DNA of 45,687 bases, taken from positions 4,586 to 50,272 of the forward strand of contig JAHFCR010000014.1 in the NCBI GenBank assembly GCA_023249405.1, read 5' to 3'. The notes under the pieces are model-generated. The model was not told the DNA's origin. It did no database searches and saw only the letters and a list, made by a program, of their open reading frames with translations. The first letter of the stretch is position 1. Each line of letters opens with the position of its first letter. Of the stretch, positions 15,852 to 39,867 are shown in pieces. The position numbers and the translations under genes are program-made. Origin of the DNA: Peptococcaceae bacterium (GTDB taxonomy: Bacteria > Bacillota > DSM-12270 > Thermacetogeniales > Thermacetogeniaceae).

Positions 15852-17438
15852 ATGATACTCTCGATGCTGTTACAGGCACTGCCGCTCCTAGCTGCGGTGA
15901 CTGAAGGCTTTGCTACGGTGACCGATGATGGCGGCCGACGCCTGAGAACTGTCAATTCCAAGGGCGAGGAACTTGAGGAGTATAGAGATTCTGTTTACGA
16001 TTTGGCTAAGGAAAGCGCCCGATTGCAACAGGCAATGATTGGTCCGTCGCAAATCGTCGAGAGCGCCCTGGCCTGGACTGTTCCGATTGGCGCTTATGTT
16101 TTGAGTTGCAGCAATGTGGAACGCGCAAAGCGTGAAAAGAGTTTGCAGAAATCTTTGGAGAAGGCGCTGCCTTTAATTGCCAATGTTGTAGGTGGAGAGT
16201 CGGTCCTGTTCGACCGAGAAGGAAAGCGGCTGGCTAGCTATAATCCTAACGGAACGATCAATAAACAATTTTTGCACAAGATTAGCGATTATGCAAAGCG
16301 GGCCATGGAGACCGATGAGGCGGTGATCGACGAATCCTTCTCTTTCGGAGGCGCCATGGCGGTGCGTATTCCTATCACGCATGCATTCGGGCTCGGCTTT
16401 AACAACGAGCTGACAGCGAAGAAGAGCAAGAAGCTGATGGAAGAGGTTCAAAAATTTCAGTATGCCCGCTACTCCTTCAGCGACATCGTGGGTGAGCATG
16501 AAGCGATCACCAGGGTGATCCACCAAGCTGAACAGATCGCCGATGGAAATTCGACAGTGCTTATCTACGGCGAAACAGGCACCGGGAAGGAATTGTTTGC
16601 GCAGTCGATTCATAATGCCAGCGAGAGGAGAAACAAACCGTTCGTTGCCATCAATTGCGGCGCTCTTCCCGTATCCCTGATCGAGAGCACGCTATTTGGC
16701 TATGTCGACGGCGCCTTTACCGGTGCGAAGAGGGGTGGAGCACCGGGGGCCTTTGAAATGGCTGATCGAGGAACAATTTTTTTGGATGAAATCAGTGAGA
16801 TGGAACTCAACCTGCAGTCCAAACTGCTGCGTGTATTGCAGGAGAGGGAGGTGACCAGGATTGGCGGTAGCAAACCGCTTTGGGTCGATGTCAGGGTGCT
16901 CGCTTCAACGAACAAGGACATGGGAAAATTGGTGGCTGGCAACAAGTTCCGTAATGACCTGTATTTCAGACTGAATGTGGTGCAAGTTAATGTGCCGCCA
17001 CTGCGGGACCGGATTTCGGATATACCACTGCTGACGGACAATTTTATTCGTAAATATAATCCATTGCTTGGCAAGTATGTCCTGGAAGCTGACCAGGAGA
17101 CCCTGACTGTCATGCAGGACTATACTTGGCCGGGAAACATCAGGGAACTGCAGAATTGCGTTGAGCATGCTCTCAACATGGTCGAAAGAGACCAGCAGAC
17201 GATTATGCTCCATCATTTGCCGCCTTACATCCGGCAAAAAAACGGGATCTCCTCCAGGGGCGAAAGGGTTTACTGTCCCGGTATAACTTTGGCAAGTATC
17301 ATGCTGGAGACCGAACGCCAGGTGATCGAGACGGCTTTGCAGAAGGCGAATGGGAAGAGGAAAGAGACAGCGAAGATGCTCGGGATCAGCATGACCACCC
17401 TGTGGCGTAAAATGCAGACCCTGAATCTGGGTGCTTGA
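15852..17438 (+). CDS. Sigma-54-dependent transcriptional activator, likely regulator of the nicotinate operon
   Basis: A 528-residue bacterial enhancer-binding protein. The sensory N-terminal region (about 1-205) is not a standard receiver; it contains AVTEGFATVTDDGGRRLRTVN and a second segment GESVLFDREGKRLASYNPNG that look like PAS/GAF-type sensor modules, suggesting a small-molecule signal. The AAA+ domain has Walker A GETGTGKE (240-247), the sigma-54 contact loop GAFTGA (287-292), Walker B TIFLDEIS, and the R-finger region. A Fis-type helix-turn-helix ends the protein (GKRKETAKMLGISMTTLWRKMQ). The start is uncertain: ATG 15852 has a weak Shine-Dalgarno and ATG 15864 is an alternative. 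It lies just before a perfect -24/-12 promoter for the nicotinate genes, so it probably activates them. Confidence 0.88.
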   Translation: MILSMLLQALPLLAAVTEGFATVTDDGGRRLRTVNSKGEELEEYRDSVYDLAKESARLQQAMIGPSQIVESALAWTVPIGAYVLSCSNVERAKREKSLQKSLEKALPLIANVVGGESVLFDREGKRLASYNPNGTINKQFLHKISDYAKRAMETDEAVIDESFSFGGAMAVRIPITHAFGLGFNNELTAKKSKKLMEEVQKFQYARYSFSDIVGEHEAITRVIHQAEQIADGNSTVLIYGETGTGKELFAQSIHNASERRNKPFVAINCGALPVSLIESTLFGYVDGAFTGAKRGGAPGAFEMADRGTIFLDEISEMELNLQSKLLRVLQEREVTRIGGSKPLWVDVRVLASTNKDMGKLVAGNKFRNDLYFRLNVVQVNVPPLRDRISDIPLLTDNFIRKYNPLLGKYVLEADQETLTVMQDYTWPGNIRELQNCVEHALNMVERDQQTIMLHHLPPYIRQKNGISSRGERVYCPGITLASIMLETERQVIETALQKANGKRKETAKMLGISMTTLWRKMQTLNLGA

Positions 17439-17446
17439 AGTGGATG

Positions 17447-17460
17447 TTTCATTGTTGAAA
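17447..17460. promoter_or_regulatory. Candidate upstream activating site 1
   Basis: TTTCA-ttgt-TGAAA is a dyad nine bases after the activator stop and about 330 bases before the -24 element. A second copy with the same arms and spacing lies 99 bases downstream. Paired dyads at this distance are typical of sigma-54 activator sites. An 11-base direct repeat AGGCATTGCAA (17460-17470 and 17505-17515) is also present here. Confidence 0.5.
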
Positions 17461-17545
17461 GGCATTGCAATACTGATATTGTTTTTATACCCAGTTAAAG
17501 AGACAGGCATTGCAACGGATTATTCAAGATACAGTGCTGTGAACA

Positions 17546-17559
17546 TTTCAAAACTGAAA
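17546..17559. promoter_or_regulatory. Candidate upstream activating site 2
   Basis: TTTCA-aaac-TGAAA repeats the arms of the site at 17447-17460 exactly, with a different four-base centre. It lies about 230 bases upstream of the sigma-54 promoter. The conservation of arms but not centre argues for protein binding rather than chance. Confidence 0.5.
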
Positions 17560-17764
17560 TGATCAATGCAGCGCTTGGATCTAGAAATCGTTGGCGGAGA
17601 CTCCACCAGAGGGTACCCGTCTTCATAGGCGGCGTTGCTATGCCCGCTTCCGCGGGCTGACGTGGAGCGAGGTATTAGCCAACCCACATTAGTCAGTACC
17701 ATAGATTTTTTGTGGAGATATGACCGCCGGTTACAAACTGATTAATTGGCAGTATGCCTGATTT

Positions 17765-17781
17765 CCCGTATTTGATACGGG
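17765..17781. promoter_or_regulatory. Dyad next to the sigma-54 promoter
   Basis: CCCGTAT-ttg-ATACGGG is a perfect 7-base inverted repeat ending about ten bases before the -24 GG. It could be an operator or a short hairpin. No T tract immediately follows the hairpin stem as in a standard terminator, although GTTATTTTTTT comes after it, so a terminator for the activator gene cannot be excluded. Confidence 0.45.
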
Positions 17782-17789
17782 TTATTTTT

Positions 17790-17806
17790 TTGGCATGCCT
17801 CTTGCA
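17790..17806 (+). promoter_or_regulatory. Sigma-54 (-24/-12) promoter of the nicotinate operon
   Basis: TTGGCATGCCTCTTGCAA has GG at 17792-17793 and GC at 17804-17805, exactly 12 bases apart, matching the TGGCAY-N5-TTGCW consensus. Transcription would start near 17817, leaving a leader of about 375 bases before enamidase. The adjacent sigma-54 activator gene makes this a convincing assignment. Confidence 0.85.
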
Positions 17807-17834
17807 ACAATAATATTTTTATAACTGCCCAGGT

Positions 17835-17862
17835 CGGACTTCAGTCTGCAGACTGAAGTCCG
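17835..17862. repeat. Perfect 28-bp palindrome in the operon leader
   Basis: CGGACTTCAGTCTG is followed at once by its exact reverse complement, giving a 28-bp palindrome without a spacer. It begins about 18 bases downstream of the predicted sigma-54 transcription start, so it would lie at the 5' end of the mRNA or act as a DNA operator. The rest of 17863-18192 shows no gene; only short unconvincing frames are present. Confidence 0.85.
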
Positions 17863-18192
17863 GGTGTCTGAACGGCAGGGCATCTGTTTTTTAAAACAGG
17901 AGATGGCGGTGGAAATGCAGGGTTGAGATGCCGGCAAGAAAAGTCAATACAATACTAAAGGATGAAAGAAAGAGTTAACCGTATCAATGGGGGACATGCT
18001 TATTATGCGGCTGGATAGATTACCAGTAGCGCTCTTTCATTGTATGCTGCTTGCTATCAATGGATCATCGTGGGCATTTGATGCATTTGACACCGGATTG
18101 ATAACCTTTAAGGCCTTTTAACGAAGGCCTTTCACGCCATGGCAACAGCAGGGCGGTGCAATTTATGAACAACAACCAAAGGGAGTGACAAT

Positions 18193-19350
18193 ATGGCAAC
18201 AGCAATCAGGAACATTGGTGTGATCGTGAGTGGAGATGTCGAACATCCAGTGCTGGAAGGCGATACGATTATCGTCGACGAGGGCAAAATAGCCGCGATC
18301 GGCGGCGCCGACACTGCCAAAGGATACCAGATAGACAAGACGGTGGATGCCGGTGGCGCCACAATGATACCGGGGCTGATCGACTCCCACGTCCATCTGG
18401 TGCTTGGAGATTTCACGCCGCGCCAGAATACCTTGGGCTACCTGGAAGGAGAATTGCATGGCGGCGTGACCACCGTGATCTCGGCGGGAGAATGTCATGC
18501 TCCGGGCAGGCCGAGGGATCCAGCGGGGGTGAAAGCCCTGGCCATTTTAGCGCACAAGAGCTTCGACAATTTCCGGCCCTGTGGACTCAAGATTCATGGT
18601 GGTGCCCTGATTTTGGAAAAGGGCCTGACGGAGAAGGATTTCGATGAGTTGGCTGCCGCAGGGGTGTGGCTGGTCGGCGAGATTGGCCTGGGCACTGTGA
18701 ATACTCCGGCGGATGCCGCTCCTATGGTGCGCTGGGCCAAGCAGCGGGGGATGAAAGTGGCCATGCATACGGGTGGCACCTCGATCCCCGGCAGCTCCAC
18801 GGTCACGGCGGAAATGGTAATGAAGACTGATCCCACGGTGGTATCCCACCTCAACGGAGGGCCCACTGCAGTATCTCTGGCGGAAGTCGACAAGTTGATT
18901 GACAACTCGGACCTGGTGCTGGAGATAGTTCAGTGCGGCAATCCCCGCGTCGCGGATTATGCCGTCCGCAAAGTGGCGCAAAATGGCCAGTTGGGCCGGA
19001 TTATCCTGGGCAATGACATGCCTTCGGGAACCGGTATTATCCCATTGGGCATTCTGAGAACGTTGGTACAGTTATCGTCCGTATCAGGAATTCCTGGGGC
19101 GAAAGCGATTGCCATGGCCAGCGGTAATACCGCTAGAGTGTTTGGCCTGAACACCTCCATGATAGCGGAGGGCCGGGATGCCGATCTGGCGGTGATCGAC
19201 GCCCCGATGGGGTCGGTGGGGCAGAATGCGCTGGAAGCGATCGAGGCTGGCGACCTGCCGGCGGTGGCCATGGTGATGACGGATGGTGTGGTCAGAATCA
19301 CCAAGAGTAGAAATACACCGCCCCCGACCAGAAAGATTAGGATATCTTGA
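18193..19350 (+). CDS. ena: Enamidase (6-oxo-1,4,5,6-tetrahydronicotinate hydrolase)
   Basis: A 385-residue amidohydrolase-superfamily enzyme. It matches enamidase of the Eubacterium barkeri nicotinate pathway, which opens 6-oxo-tetrahydronicotinate to 2-formylglutarate and ammonia. Metal and active-site motifs are in order: DSHVH (His66, His68), VGEIGLG (Glu163), AMHTGG (His192), SHLNGG (His219) and GNDMPSG (Asp275). The N-terminal small beta domain (VLEGDTIIVDEGKIAAIGG) and the C-terminal strand return (EGRDADLAVIDAPMG) are complete. The ATG is preceded by AAAGGGAGTGAC. It is the first gene after the sigma-54 promoter. The specific call rests on both sequence and the downstream pathway genes; another cyclic enamide substrate is possible. 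Confidence 0.85.
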   Translation: MATAIRNIGVIVSGDVEHPVLEGDTIIVDEGKIAAIGGADTAKGYQIDKTVDAGGATMIPGLIDSHVHLVLGDFTPRQNTLGYLEGELHGGVTTVISAGECHAPGRPRDPAGVKALAILAHKSFDNFRPCGLKIHGGALILEKGLTEKDFDELAAAGVWLVGEIGLGTVNTPADAAPMVRWAKQRGMKVAMHTGGTSIPGSSTVTAEMVMKTDPTVVSHLNGGPTAVSLAEVDKLIDNSDLVLEIVQCGNPRVADYAVRKVAQNGQLGRIILGNDMPSGTGIIPLGILRTLVQLSSVSGIPGAKAIAMASGNTARVFGLNTSMIAEGRDADLAVIDAPMGSVGQNALEAIEAGDLPAVAMVMTDGVVRITKSRNTPPPTRKIRIS

Positions 19351-19397
19351 CCAGGCATGCCGGATGGTGACGCCGATGATGAGCGTAGATAAGAGCT

Positions 19398-19860
19398 ATG
19401 CAGGGGATTCGGAGCCTGTGCCAGGGATTGCCCATTGGGAGCTTCACCAAGGGTATTGCTACGGCGGCGGTGGTATTGGGGAGCAACTGCCGAAACGCCG
19501 ACGTCTGCGCCACCCTAGTCGGCAATCACACCTTCAGCCCCGATCCGGGTATCAGGCAGATACTGGCTGAAGAGATCGACCCCGCCGCCGATATCCGGGG
19601 GCACCTGATAACGGCTGCAATCGGGCAACTGGCGCCGGCCAACGGAGTGGCCGAGGCGAGGTTGCCGCTCGGACGGGGGGCTGATCCTGGGTGCGATCGT
19701 CTTTGTAGGAGCGCTCACGAAAGCGGTGCCTGATGACCTCGGGATGCAGGTTCAATCTGTCGCAAGAGGTGTGACGGAATGGAATGACCTTGAAGAGGCT
19801 TGTCGGAAACACATAAAAAAATCACGAGAGGAACGTTATAATGGCACAGTCAAAACCTGA
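19398..19860 (+). pseudogene. Unrecognised ORF apparently broken by a frameshift in a G run
   Basis: One frame from ATG 19398 reads GSFTKGIATAAVVLGSNCRN and continues to LPLGRG near 19676. There, at a run of six G (19675-19680), good coding character switches by one base to the frame LILGAIVFVGALTKAVPDDL, ending EERYNGTVKT at 19858-19860. Removing one G would fuse the two into a protein of about 150 residues. The second part overlaps the start of the next gene, as coupled genes in this operon do. Whether it is a true mutation or a sequencing error is unknown. I do not recognise the family. It fills the 490-base gap between enamidase and the DUF1185 gene. Confidence 0.5.
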
Positions 19861-20434
19861 AATTCGCAAAGTCTACACCATGGTCGAGGAAATACGCGCC
19901 GATGGCGTCCGGGTGTTGGATCGGCCACATCACAAAGCGGCTGCCGCCGCAGTGTTTAAGAATCCGTATGCCGGTGTCTACCAGGAGGATCTCAGCCTGC
20001 TCTACACCTGGAGCGAAGAGTTGGGTGAAATGCTGACGAAACGGGCGGTGGCTGCGCTGGGCATCGAACCGAAGCAGGTGGAAAGTTACGGTAAAGCCGT
20101 TATCGTCGGCGAGAAGGGCGAATTGGAACACTGCGCCGCTCTGATGCATCCGTCTTTAGGAAAGCTGATGCGGGACAACGTCGGCGGCGGCAAGGCGATC
20201 ATCCCCTCAGCCAAAAAGCTGGGCTACCCCGGTGCCGCCATTGACGTGCCGCTGCATTTCAAGAACGCCGCCTTTGTACGCTCCCACTTCGATGCCATGG
20301 AGGTTCGTCTGCCGGATGCGCCCAGGGCCGATGAACTGGTATTGATCGTGGCCGTGACTGATTCCGGACGGCCGTTCGCCAGAGTTGGCGGCCTGAAAGT
20401 TGAAGAGGTCAAGGGAGAGGACGGGCTGCACTAG
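19841..20434 (+). CDS. DUF1185 ('amino acid synthesis') family protein
   Basis: A 197-residue protein of the DUF1185/AA_synth family, recognised from NPYAGVYQEDLSLLYTWSEELGE, the ESYGKAVIVGEKGELEHCAALMHP segment, GGGKAIIPSAKKLGYPGAAIDVPL and VRSHFDAMEVRLPDAPRADE. The family has no firmly established reaction to my knowledge; members often lie with genes for ring-opening or amide hydrolysis. GAGAGGAACG precedes the ATG. Here it sits between enamidase and 2-(hydroxymethyl)glutarate dehydrogenase, so a role at the 2-formylglutarate stage (hydrolysis assistance, tautomerisation or ammonia-related chemistry) is a reasonable but untested inference. Confidence 0.8.
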   Translation: MAQSKPEIRKVYTMVEEIRADGVRVLDRPHHKAAAAAVFKNPYAGVYQEDLSLLYTWSEELGEMLTKRAVAALGIEPKQVESYGKAVIVGEKGELEHCAALMHPSLGKLMRDNVGGGKAIIPSAKKLGYPGAAIDVPLHFKNAAFVRSHFDAMEVRLPDAPRADELVLIVAVTDSGRPFARVGGLKVEEVKGEDGLH

Positions 20435-20469
20435 GAGCAGCGGCGGTCGTGATGCAGGAGGGATCTGGA

Positions 20470-21357
20470 ATGCAGGTTGGTTTGATTGGAATCGGCGCCA
20501 TGGGCGGGCCGATGGCGGTGAATCTCTGCCAGGCCGGCTTCGACCTCGCGGTCTATGATGTCAATGAAGAGGCGGTGCGACGGCTGACGGCGCAGGGAGC
20601 GACGGCAGCGGCGACTCCCAAGGAACTGGCCAAGGTATCCGAAGTAGTGATCACCATGCTGCCCAATTTCCAGATCGTATCGTCGGTCATGGAGGGAACA
20701 GATGGAGTGCTGTCGGGAATTAGGGATGGGTCGCTCGTGATCGACATGAGCACGGTGGCCCCCTACCAAGCCCGGGCTATGGCTGCGCAAGCTGCACAGC
20801 GGGGGGCGGCCTATCTGGATGCCCCCGTGAGCGGTGGTGTGGCCGGAGCGAAGCAGGGCACGCTGACCATCATGGTCGGAGGCTCTGACGAGACGGTCGA
20901 TCGGGCGATGCCCATCTTTGGAGTTTTGGGCAGGAAAGTTTACCGGGTAGGGGATGTGGGATCCGGGGCGGCGATCAAGCTGGTCAACAACCTGCTGCTG
21001 GGAGTGAACACTGCGGCCGTCGCTGAAGCCCTGGTACTGGGTGTGAAAGCCGGATTGAACCCCAGGGTGCTGCTGGATGTCATCCGTTCGAGTTCAGGCG
21101 ACAGCTACGCCCTGAAGGCCAAGGCGGACGTCTTCATTTTAGAGGGTAAGTTTGAGCCGGGGTTTGCCATCGACTTGCAGTACAAGGATCTGGAACTGGC
21201 GGCCCAGACAGGCAAGGAACTGGGAGTGCCCCTGTTCATGACCGGTCTGGCGCAACAGTTGTTCGAACAGGCGCGAGCGGCGGGTCTGGGCTCCAAGGAT
21301 ATCTCGGCGGTGATCAAGCCGTTGGAAAAGCTGATCGGTGTTGAGGTCAGGGGCTAA
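20470..21357 (+). CDS. hgd: 2-(hydroxymethyl)glutarate dehydrogenase
   Basis: A 295-residue beta-hydroxyacid dehydrogenase. The N-terminal Rossmann motif GLIGIGAMGGPMA binds NAD(P)H; the substrate motif DAPVSGGVAGAKQGTLTIMVGG is complete, and the catalytic lysine is Lys170 in GAAIKLVNNLLLG. The family includes 3-hydroxyisobutyrate dehydrogenase, glyoxylate/tartronate semialdehyde reductases and the nicotinate-pathway enzyme Hgd, which reduces 2-formylglutarate to 2-(hydroxymethyl)glutarate. Context favours Hgd. The ATG at 20470 follows GGAGGGATCT; an in-frame GTG at 20449 is less likely. It lies 35 bases after the DUF1185 gene and 12 before hmd. Confidence 0.83.
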   Translation: MQVGLIGIGAMGGPMAVNLCQAGFDLAVYDVNEEAVRRLTAQGATAAATPKELAKVSEVVITMLPNFQIVSSVMEGTDGVLSGIRDGSLVIDMSTVAPYQARAMAAQAAQRGAAYLDAPVSGGVAGAKQGTLTIMVGGSDETVDRAMPIFGVLGRKVYRVGDVGSGAAIKLVNNLLLGVNTAAVAEALVLGVKAGLNPRVLLDVIRSSSGDSYALKAKADVFILEGKFEPGFAIDLQYKDLELAAQTGKELGVPLFMTGLAQQLFEQARAAGLGSKDISAVIKPLEKLIGVEVRG

Positions 21358-21369
21358 CTAGCGATAGGG

Positions 21370-22806
21370 GTGATGGTGGTGGACGGAGCAATGCAACTGG
21401 CGATCTCCAAAGGATTCGACCCTCGGGCGCTGACACTGGGGGAAACATTGGAACTGGCCGCGGAACTGAAACTCCCGGTCAGCGATGTGGTGATCGCCGA
21501 GGCCGGGAACAGGGACGGGCTAACTCCGTCAGAGGTGCTGGATGCGGTGGAGAAAGCCTTCGAACATAACTTGCAGGCGCTGGAAACCGGCCTCACCACA
21601 GGCAGCAGCTTCCTGTTCGGGACCGTGGCCCAGGAACTGGCAGAGCACGATTTCGGAAAGAAGCTCTTCGAAGACGATTTTATCAACCGGGCGCTGGTCT
21701 ACACGCTGGCGGCACAGATCGGAAATCACACCGTGGGGCTCAATCCCTGCGCCGGGACCGGTGATGCCTGTCCCTACACGGGATTGCTCAGGGCGATCAT
21801 GGAAACTGAGGATCGGGAGCAGGCGTTGCGGGCAGCGGCAGTGATGCTGAAGGTGGGCACCATGTTCCAGGCCGGCAAAACCACCACGGGTTGCAACATG
21901 GAGGGGCTGGGAGCCGGGGCGGCGGCTGTGGCTGCTGCCTTGGTGGAGCTTGGAGGCGGCAGCCCGGCAACGCTGGGTAGGGCGGTTGTGCTGGCTCTGT
22001 CACCTACTATTGCCGTGCCCTGCACGCCGCGGGTGATGGTGGCGGGATTGTGCGCCACTCATATCGGCGTCGCCATTCTGGACGGCGCTCTGGCAGCCAG
22101 GCTGGCCCTTCTGACCAATATTCCGGTGATGGTGCCGGTGGATGTGATGATTGCCATGGCCGGGGCGGTGCATCCGATTTCGGCGGACTCTGTGGTTCCG
22201 GTGGTGATCGAATATCTGCAGCCCTTTTTTAAGGTCAACCCCCAGGTAGAAGCATATACCGATTCCCAGGCTAAAAGCCAGGAGGCGGCGGCAACTATCC
22301 GGAGCACGACCAAGGCGCGGGACGAAGCCCGGTGTCTGGCTCGTACCGCCAACCCCATCACTGCCCCCTTTGGGGAGGTCGTGGTTGGCGGCAGTAGCCA
22401 GGCCGTAGGGTCGCCGGCCAATGCCGCCCGGATTGCCCACGAGCTTGCCCGGGGCCGCATTACCAGGGTGATTGTGGAATTGGCACCCGAACTCTTTGTG
22501 CGCCGCGGCATCAATGTGCCGTCCATTCTGATGGCTGCCGTGTATGGGGCGCATACCGGAGACAGCGCTATGTATGGACAAGTGATGGACCGGCTGCAGA
22601 GCCGGGAAGTGGCGATAGAAGTGGTGAAGGCGGCGCTGCCCCATTTGCAGAGGATTACCATCGAAGCAACAGAAGGCGGTTCCATGGTGGACGCTTTCAA
22701 CCAGGGTGGTGGGCGCCTGATCATCAGGGATGCCAGGCCGAGCCGCGCCGAGGCGCTGGCTGCTGCCAAGCGGTTGAACATCGTGGTCGTCAGTGAGAAA
22801 GAATGA
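21370..22806 (+). CDS. hmd: 2-(hydroxymethyl)glutarate dehydratase, [4Fe-4S] serine dehydratase-like
   Basis: A 478-residue protein related to iron-sulfur L-serine dehydratases. Residues about 10-300 form the alpha-type catalytic domain with NPCAGTGDACPYTG (Cys127, Cys134), TTTGCNMEGLGAG (Cys175) and CTPRVMVAGLCATH (Cys218, Cys228), supplying ligands for an oxygen-sensitive cluster. The C-terminal part (about 330-478) resembles a separate small domain with GSPANAARIAHELARGRITRV. In E. barkeri, Hmd dehydrates 2-(hydroxymethyl)glutarate to 2-methyleneglutarate and is of this type. The start is uncertain among GTG 21370, ATG 21373 and ATG 21391. A 36-codon frame with coding character (AAGAQIVVAGTVVVVTGTIG) overlaps its 3' end in the +1 frame. 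Confidence 0.82.
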   Translation: MMVVDGAMQLAISKGFDPRALTLGETLELAAELKLPVSDVVIAEAGNRDGLTPSEVLDAVEKAFEHNLQALETGLTTGSSFLFGTVAQELAEHDFGKKLFEDDFINRALVYTLAAQIGNHTVGLNPCAGTGDACPYTGLLRAIMETEDREQALRAAAVMLKVGTMFQAGKTTTGCNMEGLGAGAAAVAAALVELGGGSPATLGRAVVLALSPTIAVPCTPRVMVAGLCATHIGVAILDGALAARLALLTNIPVMVPVDVMIAMAGAVHPISADSVVPVVIEYLQPFFKVNPQVEAYTDSQAKSQEAAATIRSTTKARDEARCLARTANPITAPFGEVVVGGSSQAVGSPANAARIAHELARGRITRVIVELAPELFVRRGINVPSILMAAVYGAHTGDSAMYGQVMDRLQSREVAIEVVKAALPHLQRITIEATEGGSMVDAFNQGGGRLIIRDARPSRAEALAAAKRLNIVVVSEKE

Positions 22807-22903
22807 CCGATCATCCAGGGCCGCCGGGGCGCAGATTGTTGTCGCCGGGACGGTAGTGGTAGTGACGGGAACTATCGGTACGGTCTTCGAAACGCTGGCT
22901 TGA
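22793..22903 (+). CDS. Short overlapping ORF after hmd, uncertain
   Basis: A 36-codon frame from GTG 22793 to TGA 22903 overlaps the last codons of hmd in the +1 frame and reads RAAGAQIVVAGTVVVVTGTI near its middle. It could be a tiny gene, a frameshifted C-terminal extension of hmd, or chance in GC-rich DNA. No Shine-Dalgarno is evident. It fills the space before the mutase. Confidence 0.2.
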   Translation: MRKNDRSSRAAGAQIVVAGTVVVVTGTIGTVFETLA

Positions 22904-22918
22904 GGTGGGTGATCGACA

Positions 22919-24832
22919 ATGCCAGGGCAGACCTCGGAATCGGAAAGTGAGGGAAACACAGTGCAGGAAAAGACGAAGCAGATGATCAGGGATGATTATG
23001 ATTACGTCCGTGCTTATGCCAGGGTGTTCAGAGTGGAGATGCCGCTGGTTGCCAATGATGAATCGATAACGGGCTTACCAGGGCCGTACCCCAGACAGGT
23101 GGCCGGCGTGGTCCGGGATGGCCACCGGATTGCAGCGCTGGGGCGCAGGGCGCGGGAGACCGGAATGCCGGTGTTGAATCCCATCCTGGGGAGAAACACT
23201 GCGCCCGAAACCTACGAGCAGAGCCAGGATATGTACAAGGTAGCCGCAGACCTGGGAATTACCATCTTTCATTTCGTGCACTCCGAGGCGACCCGCCATA
23301 TCGATCCCTTGGACGGCGAGGAACTGATTGAACAGTCCAGGGGCAAGGGGGGAATTACTCCCGGCGGGGAGCGGGAGTTTGTAGCTATGGGCGGTGGGTC
23401 AGTGCACCCGGTGCGGATCAACGCCACCGGCGATACTCCGTACCTGTCGATTATCAATGCCCTGATCGCCGGATTCGACGGTACGGATATCGGGCCGGTG
23501 ATCCATGCCCATTTTGGAGGCCGGGGCATCAAGGATTACCGCACCAAGATCGTCAACGGATTCAAGGCGCTGCAGATCTGCGCCGAAAACAATATTTTTG
23601 TCCAGGTGGAGTCTCACAAGCATCTCAACAATATCGGGGGTACCGACGGGATGGCCCTTGCCATGTGCCTGCTGGCGGAGGGTTTGGCCGTGCTGGCCGG
23701 CCTGCCCAGGGAATTGAGCGCCCTGCAGATGAATGTGGCCGGTATCAATTTGCTGGCCGATCTGGCCGTTATGAGGGCCTTCAGGCAATGTATGTGGAGT
23801 GAACATTTGATCGTTGTTCCCGAAACATTTCAACAGCCCCCAACCGATCTGGTGGCAGAGCAGGGCCATTTTGCCAGGATGGCTCTCAGCGCCAGGCTGG
23901 GAGGGGCAAATTTCTACCGTCCTAAGGCTGCCGAGGCGATAGGTATTCCGACGGGGTATTCCATGGGCCGGGCAATCTGGGCCAGCCAGAACATCTTTGA
24001 AAATGTGGCTTTCATCGACATCCAGGATCCGGCCATCAGCAGGCGCCGGAACGAGATTATCACTGAAGCCATGGCGGTGCTGCGGGTAGCGCTGAGTTTG
24101 AACCGGGAGCTTGATCCGGCGGAGATCAACCCTGCTTTCTGGGGCCGTTACGAAGTCGAGCAATTGGTGGCGGCAATCGTAGATGCTGGCAAGTCGGGAG
24201 TGCTGGACTGTCCTCAAGCGGCGGGCTGGGACCTGAAGAGAGGCGTGCGGACCAACCGCGATCCGGATGGAATCCGCCGCTACGTGCCAGGGTTTGGACC
24301 TGTTAAAATCCCTCTGGAAAAATTGGCCTTCACGAGTGAGCCGGTTACGGTTAGCCGGCCGCAACAGATCACCAGACCGGGGAAGATTCTCCTGGCGACG
24401 GTGGGAGCGGATGCTCACGTGCTGGGCATCAACCAGATTAAAGAGGCGTTCGAAAAAGCGGGCCATGAAGTCATCTTTTTAAGGGGGATGAACCTGCCGG
24501 AGACAGTGGCCGAGGTGGCGGCCGAGGCTGGAGTCGATGTGGTGGGTGTGAGCAATCTACTGGGTTTGGGGATCGAGCTGTTTCCCAGAGTCAGGCAGCG
24601 TCTATCAGAGTTGGGACTGGCAGAGACAATCATCGTCATTGCTGGCGGCAGAATTGCCGAGAAGGAAGAAGACATGGATTCCTACCGGTATAAAATTCTG
24701 GATCAAGGACCCGGCTTTTTAAATGTCGACGGCTTCTTCGGGCCGGGAACGGAACCTGATGAGGCAGTGGCTTGGGTGGAGCAAAAACTTCAACAGCGGG
24801 GGATGAATAAGGTTGAGCCAGCAAAAAATTAA
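22919..24832 (+). CDS. mgm: 2-methyleneglutarate mutase, adenosylcobalamin-dependent
   Basis: A 637-residue B12-dependent carbon-skeleton mutase. The C-terminal cobalamin-binding domain starts near 485 ([16 protein letters not shown]) and carries the base-off/His-on motif DxHxxG as Asp498, His500, Gly503, followed by GVSNLLGLG and VIAGGRI. The large N-terminal part is a TIM barrel with [13 protein letters not shown] and [18 protein letters not shown]. It converts 2-methyleneglutarate to 3-methylitaconate, a radical rearrangement known from the nicotinate pathway. ATG 22919 has GAGGTGG upstream; GTG 22961 after GAGGGAA is an alternative start that would remove 14 residues. The gene overlaps mii by 20 bases. 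The surrounding genes make methyleneglutarate much more likely than glutamate as substrate. Confidence 0.87.
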
Positions 24833-25952
24833 CTGCTGTATCATGAGAGGCGGTACCAGCAAGGGGATATTTTTTCACGAGCATGATCTTCCAGCCGATC
24901 AGGCGGCTAGAGATCGGCTGGCGCTCAAGGTGTTCGGAAGTCCGGACGTGAGGCAGATCGACGGCCTGGGCGGCGCGGATCCTCTGACCAGCAAGATGGC
25001 GATTATAGCCAAGTCGAAGCGTCCGGATGCCGATGTGGATTACACCTTCGGACAGGTCAGCATTGAGCGGCCACTGGTTGATTACTCGGGGAACTGCGGT
25101 AACATCTCTTCGGCAGTGGGGCCCTTTGCCATCGCCGAGGGTCTGGTGCCGGCGGTGGAGCCGATCACCAGGGTTCGTATTTACAATAAGAACACCGGCA
25201 AGATCCTGATTGCCGAAGTACCTGTATCTGGAGGCAACGTGCAGGTTGAGGGGTCGTACGAGATTGACGGGACGCCCGGAACCGGTGCCAAAATACTCAT
25301 GGACTTCGCCGGCACGGTCGGGTCTGCCACCGGCGAGATGCTGCCTACAGGCAGGCCGAAGGATCTGCTGCAGGTCGAGGGCGTGGGAGCGCTGGAGGCA
25401 TCAATCGTGGATGTAGCCAATCCGGTCGTCTTTGTAAGGGCAAAGGATCTGGGACTGACCGGTATCGAGACCCCGGCGGATATTGACAGCAATGCAGATT
25501 TGCTGGCAACTCTCGAGCGCATCCGGTCTCTGACTGCGGTGATGATCGGCATGGCCACATCCCCGGAGGAGGCAACATCCAAGTGCCCGGCCTTCCCGAT
25601 GGTCGCCTTCGTGAGCGCGCCGCGTGATTATCGGGCTTTTTCCAGCGGGCGCATGGTGCTCCAGCAGGATGTCGACTTGGTATCCAGGCTGATGTACATG
25701 CAGGTGATGCACAAAACATACGCCGGAACGGGAACTACGTGCACCGGGGCGGCTGCCAGAATTCCCGGCACTATCGTCAACGAAGTATGCGCCGGTGACG
25801 GTCCAGTGGTCCGGATCGGGCATCCCTCGGGAGTGATTGAGATTGAGGTGGGCATCGCTTGCCAGAATGGGATGGTCGTGCTTCAGCGTGCGGCTTTTGG
25901 ACGGACGGCCAGGCGCATCATGGATGGCCGTGTTTATGTGACATCCGACTGA
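24813..25952 (+). CDS. mii: 3-methylitaconate delta-isomerase, PrpF family
   Basis: A 379-residue PrpF-family protein with the diaminopimelate-epimerase-like double hot-dog fold. The N-terminal [20 protein letters not shown] is the family hallmark, and [17 protein letters not shown] carries the likely catalytic Cys95. Mii shifts the double bond of 3-methylitaconate to give 2,3-dimethylmaleate. The TTG start at 24813 is supported by a purine-rich GGGGGATGAATAAGG upstream and lies inside the end of mgm. Position directly after the mutase supports the methylitaconate substrate rather than the methylaconitate of the 2-methylcitrate cycle; no prp genes are nearby. Confidence 0.87.
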
Positions 25953-26055
25953 GGCAAAGAGCAGGATCACAAAGCAGCGCAAGGTGTCGGTTATATTGTG
26001 GTGAGATCTCGGACAACGGCCACCTAAAGCGCGACTGAAGCAAGGAGGTTTCAGG

Positions 26056-27525
26056 ATGCAGAGCATTGTGGCGCAAGGCACTTGCCTGATGATCTACGAC
26101 CTAGGGAGCACTTTTACAAAGGTCACCGCCTTTACTTTAAAAGACGGGGATCTGGTTTTCACTGGCCGGTCACAAGCGCCGACAACGGTAGACAATATTG
26201 TGATCGGGATGCAGAATGCACACTATAATCTCCTCAATGCCTTGGATGTCAAAAGTATGCAGAGCGACGAGACATATGCTACCAGCAGTGCTGCCGGAGG
26301 GCTGCGCATGGTGGCCATGGGCTACATGCCCAGAGTTACAGCCAAGGCTGCCAAGGAGGTGGCCATGAGTGCCGGCGCTAGGGTGCTGGAGATCGTCTCC
26401 TATGAAGATGAGCCCGGGTTTAAAATTGAAGTGCTGCAGGAGATCAAACCGGATATTATCCTGCTGGCTGGCGGTACGGATGGAGGAGACCAGGATTCGA
26501 TGGTGCACAACGCTGGCGTGATCCTGGAGAGTAAGATCGATACAGCGGTCATCGTTGCCGGCAATGTGGATGCACAGGCCAGAATCGGGCAGATCCTGGA
26601 AAGCGGCAATGTCAAAGTCGTCAGAGTTCCCAACGTGATGCCTACCATTCATCAACTGAATGTCAGACCGGCCCGTCAAGCCATCCATGAGCAGTTCATC
26701 CGCCAGATTACCAGGGCCGGCGGGCTCCGCAAGATCAGCGAGACCGTCAGCAACGGGAAGGTACTGCCAACGCCAGGGGCAGTGTTGATGGGCGCCGAAC
26801 TGCTGGCGCTGGGCGTCGATGGTCTTGACGGGGTGGGAGACCTGCTGCTGGTTGATGTGGGAGGGGCGACGACGGATGTCCATTCGGTGCTGTTCTCCCT
26901 GCAAGACATTCCGGATGAGGAAAAAGGGCTGATCGTAAGCAACGAGAAGCAGGCGCTGTACCGTACCGTAGAGGGCAATCTGGGCGTCAGGATCAGCGCC
27001 GGCGGAATCTTGGACACTGCGGGGCCGGCATTGATATTGCGCCAAGTGGATCTCGCCGGATCCGATTTAGAACAACAATTGTGCAATTATGCAGCTTATC
27101 TGGAGAAGAATCCGGATCATATCAGTACCATCGATACGGAGCAATTGTTCGACGAGGGATTGACAATAACTGCTCTGCAGATTGCTCTCAAGCGCCACGT
27201 CGGGTACTTGTCCCGGGAATACGATCCGGTGGCGGGGATAGCACCGGGAACTCCCGTTGGGCGGGACTTGAGAAAAGTGTCCCGGGTTGTCGGAGTAGGA
27301 GGAGTGTTCACGCATTCAGATTATGGCAAGGCGGTCAGGATCTTGACCAGAGCGCTGGCGAACCCCGGCTGGTCGCTACTGCCAAAGCAGCCGGAACTGA
27401 TCATTGACAACGATTACCTGATGTATGCCATAGGTGTTTTAAGCCAGATGTATCCGGCAGCGAGCCTACGGTTTGCCAAGCGCTATCTCAAGCTGGAAGA
27501 TGGAGGAACAGGAAATGAATGCTAG
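26056..27525 (+). CDS. MutL/GlmL-like ASKHA protein, putative reactivase of the B12 mutase
   Basis: A 489-residue protein of the GlmL/MutL family, found beside glutamate mutase and other B12 enzymes. ATPase signatures of the actin/Hsp70 fold are visible: phosphate-1 DLGSTFTK (residues 15-22), ILLAGGTDGGD, and phosphate-2 LLLVDVGGATTDVHS. By analogy with diol dehydratase reactivases it may restore mutase carrying damaged cobalamin, but GlmL biochemistry is not firmly established. An excellent AGGAGG precedes the ATG. It begins about 100 bases after mii and its last 11 bases overlap dml, so it belongs to the pathway operon. Its natural client here would be 2-methyleneglutarate mutase. Confidence 0.82.
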   Translation: MQSIVAQGTCLMIYDLGSTFTKVTAFTLKDGDLVFTGRSQAPTTVDNIVIGMQNAHYNLLNALDVKSMQSDETYATSSAAGGLRMVAMGYMPRVTAKAAKEVAMSAGARVLEIVSYEDEPGFKIEVLQEIKPDIILLAGGTDGGDQDSMVHNAGVILESKIDTAVIVAGNVDAQARIGQILESGNVKVVRVPNVMPTIHQLNVRPARQAIHEQFIRQITRAGGLRKISETVSNGKVLPTPGAVLMGAELLALGVDGLDGVGDLLLVDVGGATTDVHSVLFSLQDIPDEEKGLIVSNEKQALYRTVEGNLGVRISAGGILDTAGPALILRQVDLAGSDLEQQLCNYAAYLEKNPDHISTIDTEQLFDEGLTITALQIALKRHVGYLSREYDPVAGIAPGTPVGRDLRKVSRVVGVGGVFTHSDYGKAVRILTRALANPGWSLLPKQPELIIDNDYLMYAIGVLSQMYPAASLRFAKRYLKLEDGGTGNEC

Positions 27526-28390
27526 AAAGAAACTACGACAGCTAATGAGCCGCCCCGGGATTTTGGTGGCGCCGGGCGCCCATGATGCGCTGACGGCCAA
27601 AATTATTCAGCAGGTCGGATTCGATGCCGTTTATCTGACAGGCTATGGGCAGGCTGCCAGCACTCTGGGGCAGCCGGATGTCGGGTTGCTGACCATGACG
27701 GAAATGGTTACGAGGGTTCATAATATCGCCGGGGCCGTGGATGTGCCCGTGATCTGTGATGCAGACACCGGTTTCGGCAATAGTCTGAACGTGATGCGCA
27801 CAGTCCGGGAATACGAGGCGGCCGGGGCGGCGGCGATCCAGATTGAAGACCAGGTGATACCCAAGAAATGCGGGCATATGACCGGCCGTCAGGTGGTGCC
27901 GACTGAGGAGATGGTGGACAAGATCAGGGTTGCCGTTGCCGTCAGAACCGATCTCGATCTGATGATCATCGCCCGTACCGATGCCAGAACATTGCTTGGC
28001 ATGGAAGAGGCGATCGCCAGGGGCAAGGCCTATGAGCAGGCGGGAGCGGACATTATCTTTGTGGAGTCTCCGGAATCGGTGGCGGAGATGAAAATGATCA
28101 CTTCTAGCTTTAAGGCGCCTGTGCTGGCTAACATGGTGGAAGGCGGACGGACGCCGCTACTGGATGCTGCAGAACTGGAACAACTTGGTTATAGCCTGGT
28201 GATCTTCCCTACAGCCTCGACCTACGTCATAGCCGACGCTGTGCGGCATTTGATGCTGGAGTTGAAACAAACAGGCACCACCAAGCACATGATAGATCGG
28301 ATGATTTCTTTTGAAGAGTTCAACGGCCTGCTGGGACTGCCGCGTATCAGGGAGATCGAGAAAGGCAACTACAGCATGCTGAAGGCTTGA
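27515..28390 (+). CDS. dml: 2,3-dimethylmalate lyase, isocitrate lyase/PEP mutase family
   Basis: A 291-residue isocitrate lyase-superfamily enzyme. The signature KKCGHMTGRQVVP has the active-site Cys119; DADTGFGN supplies metal-binding aspartates and FVESPES the later barrel strand. In nicotinate fermentation Dml splits 2,3-dimethylmalate to propionate and pyruvate; methylisocitrate lyase, oxaloacetate decarboxylase and carboxyphosphonoenolpyruvate mutase are related alternatives. The pathway context favours Dml. The ATG at 27515, with GGAGG upstream, is preferred over an in-frame ATG at 27473 that lies deep in the preceding gene. This is the last pathway gene on this transcript; no clear terminator follows directly. 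Confidence 0.83.
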   Translation: MNARKKLRQLMSRPGILVAPGAHDALTAKIIQQVGFDAVYLTGYGQAASTLGQPDVGLLTMTEMVTRVHNIAGAVDVPVICDADTGFGNSLNVMRTVREYEAAGAAAIQIEDQVIPKKCGHMTGRQVVPTEEMVDKIRVAVAVRTDLDLMIIARTDARTLLGMEEAIARGKAYEQAGADIIFVESPESVAEMKMITSSFKAPVLANMVEGGRTPLLDAAELEQLGYSLVIFPTASTYVIADAVRHLMLELKQTGTTKHMIDRMISFEEFNGLLGLPRIREIEKGNYSMLKA

Positions 28391-36416: not shown

Positions 36417-38408
36417 TTGAGAAAATCAGTTTTGGAGATGGTACAAGTGGGAAATGCGAGTCAGGTAAATACCGGAACTAATTTAAGAATAGAGTGGGAA
36501 AGATTTATCTCTCACGGGATAATGCCAAAAGGGGTGCGGGCAGCTATTCTCCAGTCGTGGTTGAGGAGTAAAAGGCTGGATGTCGATCCTTACGGCGGGA
36601 AAAGCGGCAGGGTGCTCTCAATTGTCGAGTTGAAAAGGCGCATTCGAGACAATGAACTGTTGATTAAAATCGTCCAAGAAATCCTGAAGGGTGTTTGCTG
36701 GACTTCCAGCAGCAGCGGTTATCTATTTTATCTTACGGATCAAGACGCAAATCTCTTGTATATTTGCGGTGACAAAAAGCTGGCAAGGGATTTTGAATTA
36801 AACATAAATTTTGGAGTCGGGGTCAATTGGGGGGAGCAGGCGGTAGGAACCACGGCAGTATCTGTTGCCCTAATGGAAAAAATACCGGTGTTTTGGATAT
36901 CTGAGGAAAAGTACTGCTTTCTGTTAAAGGAGACGGGATGTGCGTGTGCGCCTATTCAAAGGAAGGACGGCAGCGTTGCCGGCATTTTAGGTGCGGCAAC
37001 CGATTTTGCCGGGCTAGGGAAAGCTGACCGTCCTGTTTACGATTTTCTTCTGACAGCTGCTTTTGCGGTGCAGGCCTGTCTCAGGCAGTTGGAAATCGAA
37101 CGGGATTTTGAGAGCACAACGAAAAGATTTAAGGCGGTAATCGATGAAATTTCCGACGGGATTATAATTACCGATAAAAATGGTCTCGTTGTAAATATTA
37201 ACAAGGGTTTCGGCTCTCTTTTCGGCGTGGATATTACCGATGGGGTAGGCAAGCACGCTGGCTCAGCTTTCCCTCAGGCTAATTTTGTTTTAGACAGGAC
37301 GGTTCTTCCTGGCGGCAAGAATAAATTCTATGAAGGATGTATTGTTGGCAGAAGCCTTTGTCTGGAGAATGAAAGCGGCACACGGGAGTATTTGGTTGGG
37401 ATTTTTCAGAAGTACAGAGAGCAAATGAAAGCTCGGTCAGAAACTGCTACAAGCAGTTTCTCCAGGGCAAATATTGTGTTTGACGATATAATGGGCAAGA
37501 GCGTGGACATGATGAGGGTTAAAAGCAGCGCTCTGATTGCTGCCAAGGAGAACTATGAAGTTGTGATTCAGGGTGAAACAGGAACCGGAAAGGAAATGTT
37601 TGCACAGGCCATACATAATGCCAGCCGCAGGGCAAATCGGCCGTTCATCGCGATTAACTGTGGAGCCCTTCCGGGGGAACTGATAGAAAGCGAGCTTTTC
37701 GGCTACGAAGGCGGAGCGTTTACGGGAGCGCGCCCAAATGGATGCCCGGGCAAGTTTGAAATGGCCGATGGAGGAACATTGTTTTTGGATGAAATAGGGG
37801 AGATGCCTCTCAAGATTCAGGTAAAACTCTTGAGGGTACTACAGGAAATGAAATTCATGCGGGTGGGTAGCAGCCGCGCTATTGCTGTTGATGTTCGGGT
37901 GATCGCGGCAACCAACAGAGATCTCGAGGAAATGGTCAGGAATGGCGACTTCAGGGATGACCTGTACTGGCGTTTGAACGTGCTGGCGCTACGCATCCCT
38001 GCGCTGGTTGAGCGCCAAGAAGATATTCCAGATCTGATCAGCCATTTCTTAGAGCAGCATGTAAAGGAGCGCGGCCTCAAATACACATTGAGCGACGGCG
38101 CCTATAATATGCTAATTTCATACCACTGGCCCGGAAATGTCCGAGAACTCGAAAATGTTCTGAAGAGGGCCGTTGTGTATGCTGAAGACGGTCTGATCCT
38201 GCCTGAGCATTTACCGGAATATCTCACCAGAAAAGAAGTGCATCAGGTCTCTGAGGCATTGGACATGCCGCTTCAGGATGCTGAAAGAGGAGCAATTTTA
38301 CGGGTTCTTGAATCCAGCAAGGGAAACCTGAGCAGGACGGCTAAAATATTGGGGATTAGCCGTGCAACCTTATACAGCAAGATCAAAAGGTATCGGATCG
38401 AGTGTTAA
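36417..38408 (+). CDS. Sigma-54-dependent activator with GAF and PAS domains (AcoR-like)
   Basis: A 663-residue enhancer-binding protein. The N-terminal region (WERFISHGIMPKGVRAAILQSWLRSKRLDVDP) and the following GAF-like domain with GVNWGEQAVGTTAVSVAL are typical of AcoR/DhaR-type activators of organic-compound metabolism. A PAS domain spans about 235-335. The AAA+ domain has Walker A GETGTGKE (386-393), GAFTGA (433-438), TLFLDEIGEM, and a C-terminal Fis-type HTH (GNLSRTAKILGISRATLYSKIKR). TTG 36417 opens the frame, but GTG 36447 has TTGGAG nine bases upstream and may be the true start. It lies just before a sigma-54 promoter driving the Lrp-like and acyl-CoA synthetase genes. Confidence 0.88.
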   Translation: MRKSVLEMVQVGNASQVNTGTNLRIEWERFISHGIMPKGVRAAILQSWLRSKRLDVDPYGGKSGRVLSIVELKRRIRDNELLIKIVQEILKGVCWTSSSSGYLFYLTDQDANLLYICGDKKLARDFELNINFGVGVNWGEQAVGTTAVSVALMEKIPVFWISEEKYCFLLKETGCACAPIQRKDGSVAGILGAATDFAGLGKADRPVYDFLLTAAFAVQACLRQLEIERDFESTTKRFKAVIDEISDGIIITDKNGLVVNINKGFGSLFGVDITDGVGKHAGSAFPQANFVLDRTVLPGGKNKFYEGCIVGRSLCLENESGTREYLVGIFQKYREQMKARSETATSSFSRANIVFDDIMGKSVDMMRVKSSALIAAKENYEVVIQGETGTGKEMFAQAIHNASRRANRPFIAINCGALPGELIESELFGYEGGAFTGARPNGCPGKFEMADGGTLFLDEIGEMPLKIQVKLLRVLQEMKFMRVGSSRAIAVDVRVIAATNRDLEEMVRNGDFRDDLYWRLNVLALRIPALVERQEDIPDLISHFLEQHVKERGLKYTLSDGAYNMLISYHWPGNVRELENVLKRAVVYAEDGLILPEHLPEYLTRKEVHQVSEALDMPLQDAERGAILRVLESSKGNLSRTAKILGISRATLYSKIKRYRIEC

Positions 38409-38491: not shown

Positions 38492-38508
38492 TTGGCATGG
38501 GTTTTGCT
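38492..38508 (+). promoter_or_regulatory. Sigma-54 (-24/-12) promoter of the Lrp-like/acyl-CoA synthetase operon
   Basis: TTGGCATGGGTTTTGCT has GG at 38494-38495 and GC at 38506-38507, exactly 12 bases apart and in good agreement with consensus. The start would be near 38519, about 120 bases before the first ATG. The upstream sigma-54 activator is the obvious regulator. Confidence 0.8.
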
Positions 38509-38637: not shown

Positions 38638-39867
38638 ATGCCAGAGAACGCAAAGCCTGCACCGGCATATTTGCTGGGAACCGATGAGAAGCAGAAATGG
38701 ATGGGAGATTATTTCTTTGCGCCCAGAGGGCTCGGGTTTCTGGAGCCTGGAATCGTCGGATTGGACGACGCCAAGATGAGCGCCTACAACGTGGCCAAAT
38801 CATCTTATCAGATCCATCCCGAGGTTTTCAATATGGATTATCTCTCCAAGGCCGTGGGACTGGGAAGGGACGAGATTATTCAACGCATGCACAGGCTCTA
38901 CGATGAGCACCTGATTGTGTACGTGATGAATCCCGCCGTTTCCGTCTATGGCTGGGGACTTTATTACTGGCTGGTCAAACTGAGGGAGGGCACTGCGCCG
39001 GAGACTAAGGCAAAGCTGGCGGAGTGGTTCCAGGACAAAGACGATATCTGCACGGGTTATGAATGCAAAGGTGACTTTGATTTCTTTAACGGCAACCATA
39101 TGAGGGTCATCGACAACCTGTTGGCAGATGTGATTGAACCCTGGAAAAATAATCCGGAAGTGGAGTATGTCCATCTCTGTCCGATTCGCCGTTGCCTACG
39201 GGAATCACATATCAACATGTTTGATTTCTCTGGAGAGGGCTACCGGGAGGTCGTGTGGGGCAAGGACGAACTGGCAAAACTGGCCAAACACCAGGACAAG
39301 ATGGACATGCTGGACTTGAAAATCTTGCAGGCCCTGAACGCCAAGCGGCCGATGGAAGAGGTTTTTGATTTCAAGGTCCTATCCGAAATTTCCGGACTCG
39401 ACCCGAAAGAGATGCTGAGCGGCATTAAGGAATTGGTGGAAACCAAACGCATTATCGTACCCTTGTTCCATCTCAACTTCATGAAGCTGGGCCTGACAAA
39501 TCATGTCTTCGTTATCCGCCTGTTTCAGAATGTCCCCTGCTGCCGCAAGGCGCAGATCACCGACGAGTTGTCGCGAATTGCAGAATTTAACACTATCATG
39601 GAATTCAGCGATTCCTTCTATGACATCATTGCCTGGGCCTACAACGAAGTCAACGATATCAAGGCTTTGAAGGAAAAAATCTATTCCTACAGCGAGATCG
39701 AGGACGTCAAGGAGGCCGATATGAACCGCATGTTCAGGCGTTGGGTCTGCCGCCTGGACGACCAGAACGGTTTCTGGGAGGAATGTATGTTCACGGACGA
39801 TTTTCTCCAGGACCGCACCGAAAAGAATGGGGTAAGATGCTGCCACGCCAGGAAGGAGGGGGAATAA
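38638..39867 (+). CDS. Tandem Lrp/AsnC-like regulator protein
   Basis: A 409-residue protein that looks like two Lrp/AsnC units in tandem. The first unit has a winged-helix part (FNMDYLSKAVGLGRDEIIQR, near 65-90) and an alpha/beta domain; the second has LDLKILQALNAKRPM...LSEISGLDPKEMLSGIKELVE (about 222-272) and a further ferredoxin-like domain. Lrp-type domains bind DNA and small metabolites. Several cysteines (CCRKA, CCHARK) could bind a metal. The long N-terminal lead (MPENAKPAPAYLLGTDEKQKW) is not family-typical. GAGGG precedes the ATG. It abuts the acyl-CoA synthetase gene with no gap, so it probably senses a related acid or CoA ester; DNA-binding function is inferred. Confidence 0.65.
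   Translation: MPENAKPAPAYLLGTDEKQKWMGDYFFAPRGLGFLEPGIVGLDDAKMSAYNVAKSSYQIHPEVFNMDYLSKAVGLGRDEIIQRMHRLYDEHLIVYVMNPAVSVYGWGLYYWLVKLREGTAPETKAKLAEWFQDKDDICTGYECKGDFDFFNGNHMRVIDNLLADVIEPWKNNPEVEYVHLCPIRRCLRESHINMFDFSGEGYREVVWGKDELAKLAKHQDKMDMLDLKILQALNAKRPMEEVFDFKVLSEISGLDPKEMLSGIKELVETKRIIVPLFHLNFMKLGLTNHVFVIRLFQNVPCCRKAQITDELSRIAEFNTIMEFSDSFYDIIAWAYNEVNDIKALKEKIYSYSEIEDVKEADMNRMFRRWVCRLDDQNGFWEECMFTDDFLQDRTEKNGVRCCHARKEGE

Follow-up and report, generated by a model that had tools for sequence, protein, structure and literature searches.

Sigma-54-dependent regulation by enhancer-binding proteins (EBPs) has been catalogued for the Clostridiales, for which table 1 and the text of Nie et al. (2019, PMC6615313) give 39 EBP groups, none of them targeting nicotinate genes and the term nicotinate being absent from the text, with upstream activating sequences (UAS) about 100-250 bp upstream and a promoter consensus of TTGGCAT-N5-TTGCT. 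Here, a 45,687-nt stretch of DNA (the window) from a Peptococcaceae bacterium (GCA_023249405.1, contig JAHFCR010000014.1, positions 4,586 to 50,272) was analysed, in which the gene of a sigma-54 activator, named EBP1, precedes an operon of nicotinate pathway genes reaching from ena to dml. For comparison the cluster of Eubacterium barkeri (locus L022) was used, whose gene functions were presumed, in part from the names of solved structures. This cluster likewise contains ena, hgd, hmd, mgm, mii, a glmL-like gene, dml and a PF06684 gene, but differs in having genes for 6-hydroxynicotinate reductase (Hnr; hnr), nicotinate dehydrogenase (Ndh; ndh) and 2,3-dimethylmalate dehydratase (dmdAB) as well as a divergent LysR gene, in lacking EBP1 and in showing no -24/-12 site above threshold. 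Pelosinus resembles E. barkeri in that a LysR gene is found at the cluster in place of EBP1.

With the regulons catalogued in PMC6615313 the window locus shares the EBP gene adjoining its target operon, the Fis-type helix-turn-helix (HTH) and a promoter of the type TTGGCAT-N5-TTGCT, whereas its UAS, TTTCA-N4-TGAAA, differs from the TGT-N10-12-ACA given there for 15 of the 39 groups, the comparison covering those 15. The kind of system is known; the activator group, the binding site and the target pathway appear to be new. No report connecting sigma-54 with nicotinate was found in the openly licensed literature searched, and an earlier reading of the window from its letters alone (the original prediction), which knew of no description of such control for this pathway, is in line with the 39 groups. 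Very probably a dedicated sigma-54 circuit drives the locus, the circuit being ancestral to a full nicotinate regulon, and the source lineage has lost, by deletion, the genes of steps one and two and of one late step.

The proposed sigma-54 switch upstream of ena

The elements of the proposed switch are the following:
15852..17438, + strand: EBP1, sigma-54 activator with a tandem PAS-like N-terminal region, an AAA+ domain with GAFTGA and a Fis-type HTH
17447..17460, no strand: UAS copy 1, TTTCATTGTTGAAA
17546..17559, no strand: UAS copy 2, TTTCAAAACTGAAA, extended to ATTTCA-N4-TGAAAT at 17545-17560
17790..17806, + strand: sigma-54 -24/-12 promoter TTGGCATGCCTCTTGCA, called by matrix score and consensus

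The open reading frame (ORF) of EBP1 matched the Pfam domains Sigma54_activat (1.2e-67), AAA lid and HTH_8, and GAFTGA, already noted in the original prediction, is encoded at 16710-16727. No receiver domain was found among its Pfam matches, and EBP1 does not qualify as an NtrC-type response regulator. The N-terminal 205 residues were modelled as two similar alpha/beta domains (pLDDT 93), the fold matches of which were mostly of PAS type and included the sensor part of DhaR. Due to the missing receiver domain and the tandem PAS-like sensor region, gating by a small ligand is likelier than a nitrogen phosphorelay, and of the nitrogen or ligand gating proposed earlier the former is unlikely. The ligand may be nicotinate or a near derivative, since nicotinate genes are the common targets while the genes at the front vary (ndh, a major facilitator superfamily (MFS) transporter, an MttB group, or hgd). 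Among named NCBIfam models, PrdR, the proline reductase activator, comes closest over the AAA+ and HTH parts, but it reached a score of only 378 against a cut-off of 795, left the N-terminal sensor unmatched and has a different UAS and target. The source genome also contains rpoN, with a full-length Sigma54_DBD match on contig C22. Three matches to the RpoN DNA-binding domain were seen altogether (G000:C22, C116 and C80; L001-L003), namely the full one, a partial one in a 416-aa ORF and a third in a 1019-aa ORF which also carries a sigma-54 activator domain.

A scan for enamidase relatives yielded 56 loci, E. barkeri included, and 38 genomes were searched for the EBP1 sensor region. It was found in the source genome, in G016 (same family, 67% identical), in Bacillota CTSoil_079, in Tepidanaerobacter EBM-38 and, with four copies, in Sporomusa acidovorans; a metagenome-assembled genome (MAG) of a planctomycete gave a more distant match. 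In all five named genomes, among which are several distantly related bacteria, the EBP1 genes cluster with nicotinate genes.

Conservation of the palindrome was read directly from the sequences. To define the motif TTTCA-N4-TGAAA, the window, L062, L014 and the Sporomusa gap proximal to EBP1 were used. The motif is present in 8/8 EBP1-associated promoter gaps, which extend from EBP1 or a different upstream gene to the promoter, in each case upstream of a -24/-12-like site, with 11 copies in 2,496 bp of gaps compared to 0.015 expected:
window: 17447, 17546
L062: 1717
L014: 2940
L008: 6993, 7014, 9726, 9748
L108: 2464
L109: 6319, 13135

Five of the 11 copies (in L108, in L109 and before the Sporomusa ena) were found after the motif had been fixed, and any other 5-N4-5 palindrome occurs in at most one of the eight gaps. 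The same 11 copies are the yield of 148 kb of sequence with EBP1, compared with none in 748 kb of enamidase loci without it. The perfect form ATTTCA-N4-TGAAAT occurs once in the whole 3.57 Mb genome, in the EBP1-ena gap, and twice in G016, once in the corresponding gap; the second G016 occurrence falls within a NuoF-like coding sequence and was disregarded.

The promoter element reads TTGGCATG-CCTC-TTGCA and has the highest -24/-12 score of the window on both strands, a score reached in none of 40 Markov-simulated windows. It had been described as perfect; it does score best, and it matches the clostridial consensus given in PMC6615313 at all but the final base. From this position the transcription start is predicted at about 17817. 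In the relatives, nine -24/-12 sites were found upstream of pathway genes compared to 0.25 expected with shuffled matrices. A lack of conservation of the element in related clusters, which had been named as a refuting result, was not observed. The distance between UAS and promoter is about 120-250 bp across the gaps and 330 for window copy 1, and the spacing agrees with that of the clostridial EBPs described in that source. Since activator, UAS and promoter are conserved together in five genomes, sigma-54 control of the ena-dml locus is well supported by comparative sequence evidence.

According to the proposed mechanism, EBP1 would sense a small pathway compound, nicotinate or a close derivative, via its tandem PAS-like domains, bind the two palindromes 230-330 bp upstream and remodel sigma-54 RNA polymerase at 17790-17806, leading to transcription from ena to dml. 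In several anaerobes the same circuit would govern the full nicotinate-degradation regulon, to which it would be ancestral. Textbook nicotinate fermentation would thereby gain a specific and testable sigma-54 switch with a defined activator, site and promoter. Several points weigh against this account. The fold matches of the sensor model have low TM-scores of about 0.3, the Tepidanaerobacter promoter is weaker (L108:2611, score 12.6), a sigma-70-like match overlaps the -24/-12 element of the window, and the scoring matrix was built from a remembered consensus without fitting. Moreover, DNA binding, the ligand, transcription and the inability to ferment nicotinate are deduced, and the draft genome, in 168 contigs and with a tool-estimated completeness of 98.8%, leaves gaps that could hide another copy of the missing genes.

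Strong -24/-12 sites were also seen before pathway genes at loci without EBP1 (L016:72 and 9855, L019:506, L029:287; Treponema and a Tissierellia MAG). At L029 three upstream repeats are present, at least two of them with GATAC-N4-GTATC, and another activator probably controls the pathway there.

Retained genes, remnants and rival explanations

The following genes are retained in the operon:
18193..19350, + strand: ena, enamidase, 59% identical to the E. barkeri enamidase 2VUN
19841..20434, + strand: PF06684 (AA_synth, DUF1185) gene, a usual neighbour of ena
20449..21357, + strand: hgd, 2-(hydroxymethyl)glutarate dehydrogenase, best solved match 3CKY
21370..22806, + strand: hmd, 2-(hydroxymethyl)glutarate dehydratase, serine-dehydratase-alpha-like, matches the L022 gene
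22919..24832, + strand: mgm, B12-dependent 2-methyleneglutarate mutase, matches the L022 gene
24813..25952, + strand: mii, methylitaconate isomerase, PrpF family, best solved match 3G7K
26056..27525, + strand: gene of a GlmL/MutL-type protein, matches the L022 gene
27473..28390, + strand: dml, 2,3-dimethylmalate lyase, PrpB/PEP-mutase family, matches the L022 gene

The structures 3CKY and 3G7K are taken by us to be from E. barkeri, and on sequence similarity the assignment of Ena, Hgd and Mii to the pathway is firm. The cluster thus contains the enamidase, Hgd, Hmd, Mgm, Mii and Dml of an E. barkeri-type cluster. Translation of mgm probably starts a few codons later, at a GTG, and the GlmL/MutL-type protein is a probable mutase reactivase. 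In most of the 56 loci a PF06684 gene accompanies ena, even at those that lack the other pathway genes, and its product is likely a partner of the enamidase step. The gene order is ena, hnr/UPF0280 remnant, PF06684 gene, hgd, hmd, mgm, mii, glmL/mutL-like gene and dml; the order ena, hgd, hmd, mgm, mii, dml predicted earlier is present, with the PF06684 gene (19841-20434) and the GlmL-type gene (26056-27525) having been missed.

In CTSoil_079 and G016 the operons run ndh, ena, hnr, UPF0280, PF06684, hgd, hmd, dmdAB, mgm and onward. None of ndh, hnr and dmdAB was found in the window operon, and instead the following remnants, read directly from the sequence like the absences, were located:
18008..18115, + strand: N-terminal part of an MFS transporter gene, 36 codons with 69% identity to the Sporomusa and CTSoil homologues
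19393..19443, + strand: N-terminal ferredoxin motif of hnr, 17 codons, one Cys lost (Cys to Phe)
19425..19740, + strand: 3' part of a UPF0280/ApbE-like gene, frameshifted, with at least one indel
22835..22909, + strand: possible 3' end of dmdB, weakly supported (one test out of 24 gave p 0.025) and not used as evidence

The ferredoxin-motif remnant runs into the UPF0280 remnant. In the whole source genome no match to the C-terminal part of Hnr was obtained, whereas each of the 9/9 other enamidase genomes tested gave one or two. In the genome no DmdA orthologue was found (best full-length hit 43%), with dmdAB missing between hmd and mgm, and no Ndh orthologue either, the only hits being Mo-hydroxylases of xanthine dehydrogenase type, at best 45% identical to the full-length query. 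A substitute for Ndh might have been seen in the xanthine-dehydrogenase-like genes on contig C3, but these adjoin PreA-like and hydantoinase-like genes and were dismissed for that reason. With the first two steps and one late step deleted, the known route from nicotinate to propionate and pyruvate could, we infer, not run as encoded. Of the nicotinate fermentation operon under sigma-54 control in the original prediction, the sigma-54 part stands, while ndh, hnr and dmdAB are gone and scars lie inside the operon. By the favoured account, deletions would have taken out a transporter, ndh, dmdAB, and hnr along with a 5' portion of UPF0280, leaving the switch and eight intact genes. An operon may therefore seem complete by gene order and yet miss its entry steps, which bears on the prediction of metabolism from draft genomes.

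It is improbable that ndh, hnr and dmdAB are located elsewhere, unassembled, and that the operon does serve nicotinate fermentation. The assembly is indeed a draft, the remaining genes are intact, and CTSoil_079 and Tepidanaerobacter each have two enamidase loci, but the source genome has a single ena and no Hnr beyond the ferredoxin motif, the best candidates for DmdA and Ndh are far less similar than the retained proteins are to those of G016 (65-81% identical), and the Mo-hydroxylases belong to a xanthine-dehydrogenase/hydantoinase-type cluster. A still smaller chance is given to misjoins of the metagenome assembly as the cause of the deletions; the genome consists of many contigs, yet in place of clean joins there are diverged, frameshifted remnants, as seen from the lost Cys of Hnr and the indel in UPF0280.

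The fate of the remaining genes is less clear-cut. They may be decaying, though still intact, after recent deletions, which is a serious possibility just short of an even chance. The recognisable scars and the loss of three enzymatic steps fit such decay, as does a mildly raised number of changes along the window branch (about 248 vs 185 summed over the enzymes, with L108 as outgroup), dN/dS being unreadable because synonymous sites are saturated; on the other hand, all eight genes lack any stop or frameshift in about 10 kb, and the promoter and both UAS copies are intact, whereas the UPF0280 remnant of roughly 350 nt has at least one indel. Somewhat more tentatively, the trimmed operon may still be in use, but for another compound that joins the route at the level of the enamidase or lower. 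The ABC transporter encoded downstream might take up this compound, and a paralogue of the aconitase family would stand in for DmdAB. In favour of this, the eight genes can be aligned over their full length with intact homologues, in contrast to the short remnants with their disabling changes. Further support comes from the ABC transporter and amidohydrolase genes downstream, and many genomes have ena with its PF06684 neighbour and without the rest of the pathway; without Hnr, however, there is no known source of the Ena substrate, and the slight excess of branch changes also fits relaxation.

Trigonelline as a candidate substrate and further observations

EBP1 might head a sigma-54 regulon for the anaerobic use of trigonelline (N-methylnicotinate), of which the source organism would have kept the switch, lost the front end and repurposed the rest, although we consider this reading less likely than not. 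In G016 a single operon comprises genes for a corrinoid protein, an MttB-family methyltransferase, a sodium symporter and a pterin-binding methyltransferase, followed by ndh, ena, hnr and onward to dml, and the MttB group of S. acidovorans has its own TTTCA-N4-TGAAA and -24/-12 site. Genes of these four kinds are joined to or co-regulated with nicotinate genes at L062:2037-7156 and L109:13326-18319 and are a candidate trigonelline demethylation system, by which the methyl group would pass to tetrahydrofolate and the ring to fermentation. Trigonelline is named in PMC10805028 as a possible unknown methylotrophic substrate, and in the literature found it has no more than this status of a possible substrate; the nicotinate pathway would here be tied to MttB-type demethylation as a candidate route. 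Xanthine dehydrogenase-, PreA-, hydantoinase- and carbamate-kinase-like genes together with MttB, corrinoid proteins and an activator gene were also observed at L114-L116 (G000:C3), a cluster that resembles the DioR targets of Nie et al. and possibly serves methylated-purine use.

The search for genomes of the class of the source organism returned only 20. Two further features flank the ena promoter:
17765..17781, + strand: intrinsic-terminator-like hairpin with T tract, directly upstream of the promoter, between it and EBP1
17836..17861, no strand: perfect 26-nt palindrome in the leader, just past the predicted transcript start

The hairpin is the probable end of the EBP1 transcript. The leader palindrome occurs once in the genome and was ruled out as a repeat element; it is followed by a terminator-like hairpin at 17861-17886 and is a possible attenuator or operator. 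A search of the region against Rfam gave no family.

The third-best -24/-12-like site of the window (2043-2059) lies at the 5' end of a large BadF/DUF2229 activase ORF with no adjacent activator gene. The second-best site, TTGGCATGGGTTTTGCT at 38492-38508, follows closely on the window's one further activator gene (36417-38408) and precedes two genes (38638-41292), the first lacking any Pfam match and the other acetate--CoA ligase alpha-like.

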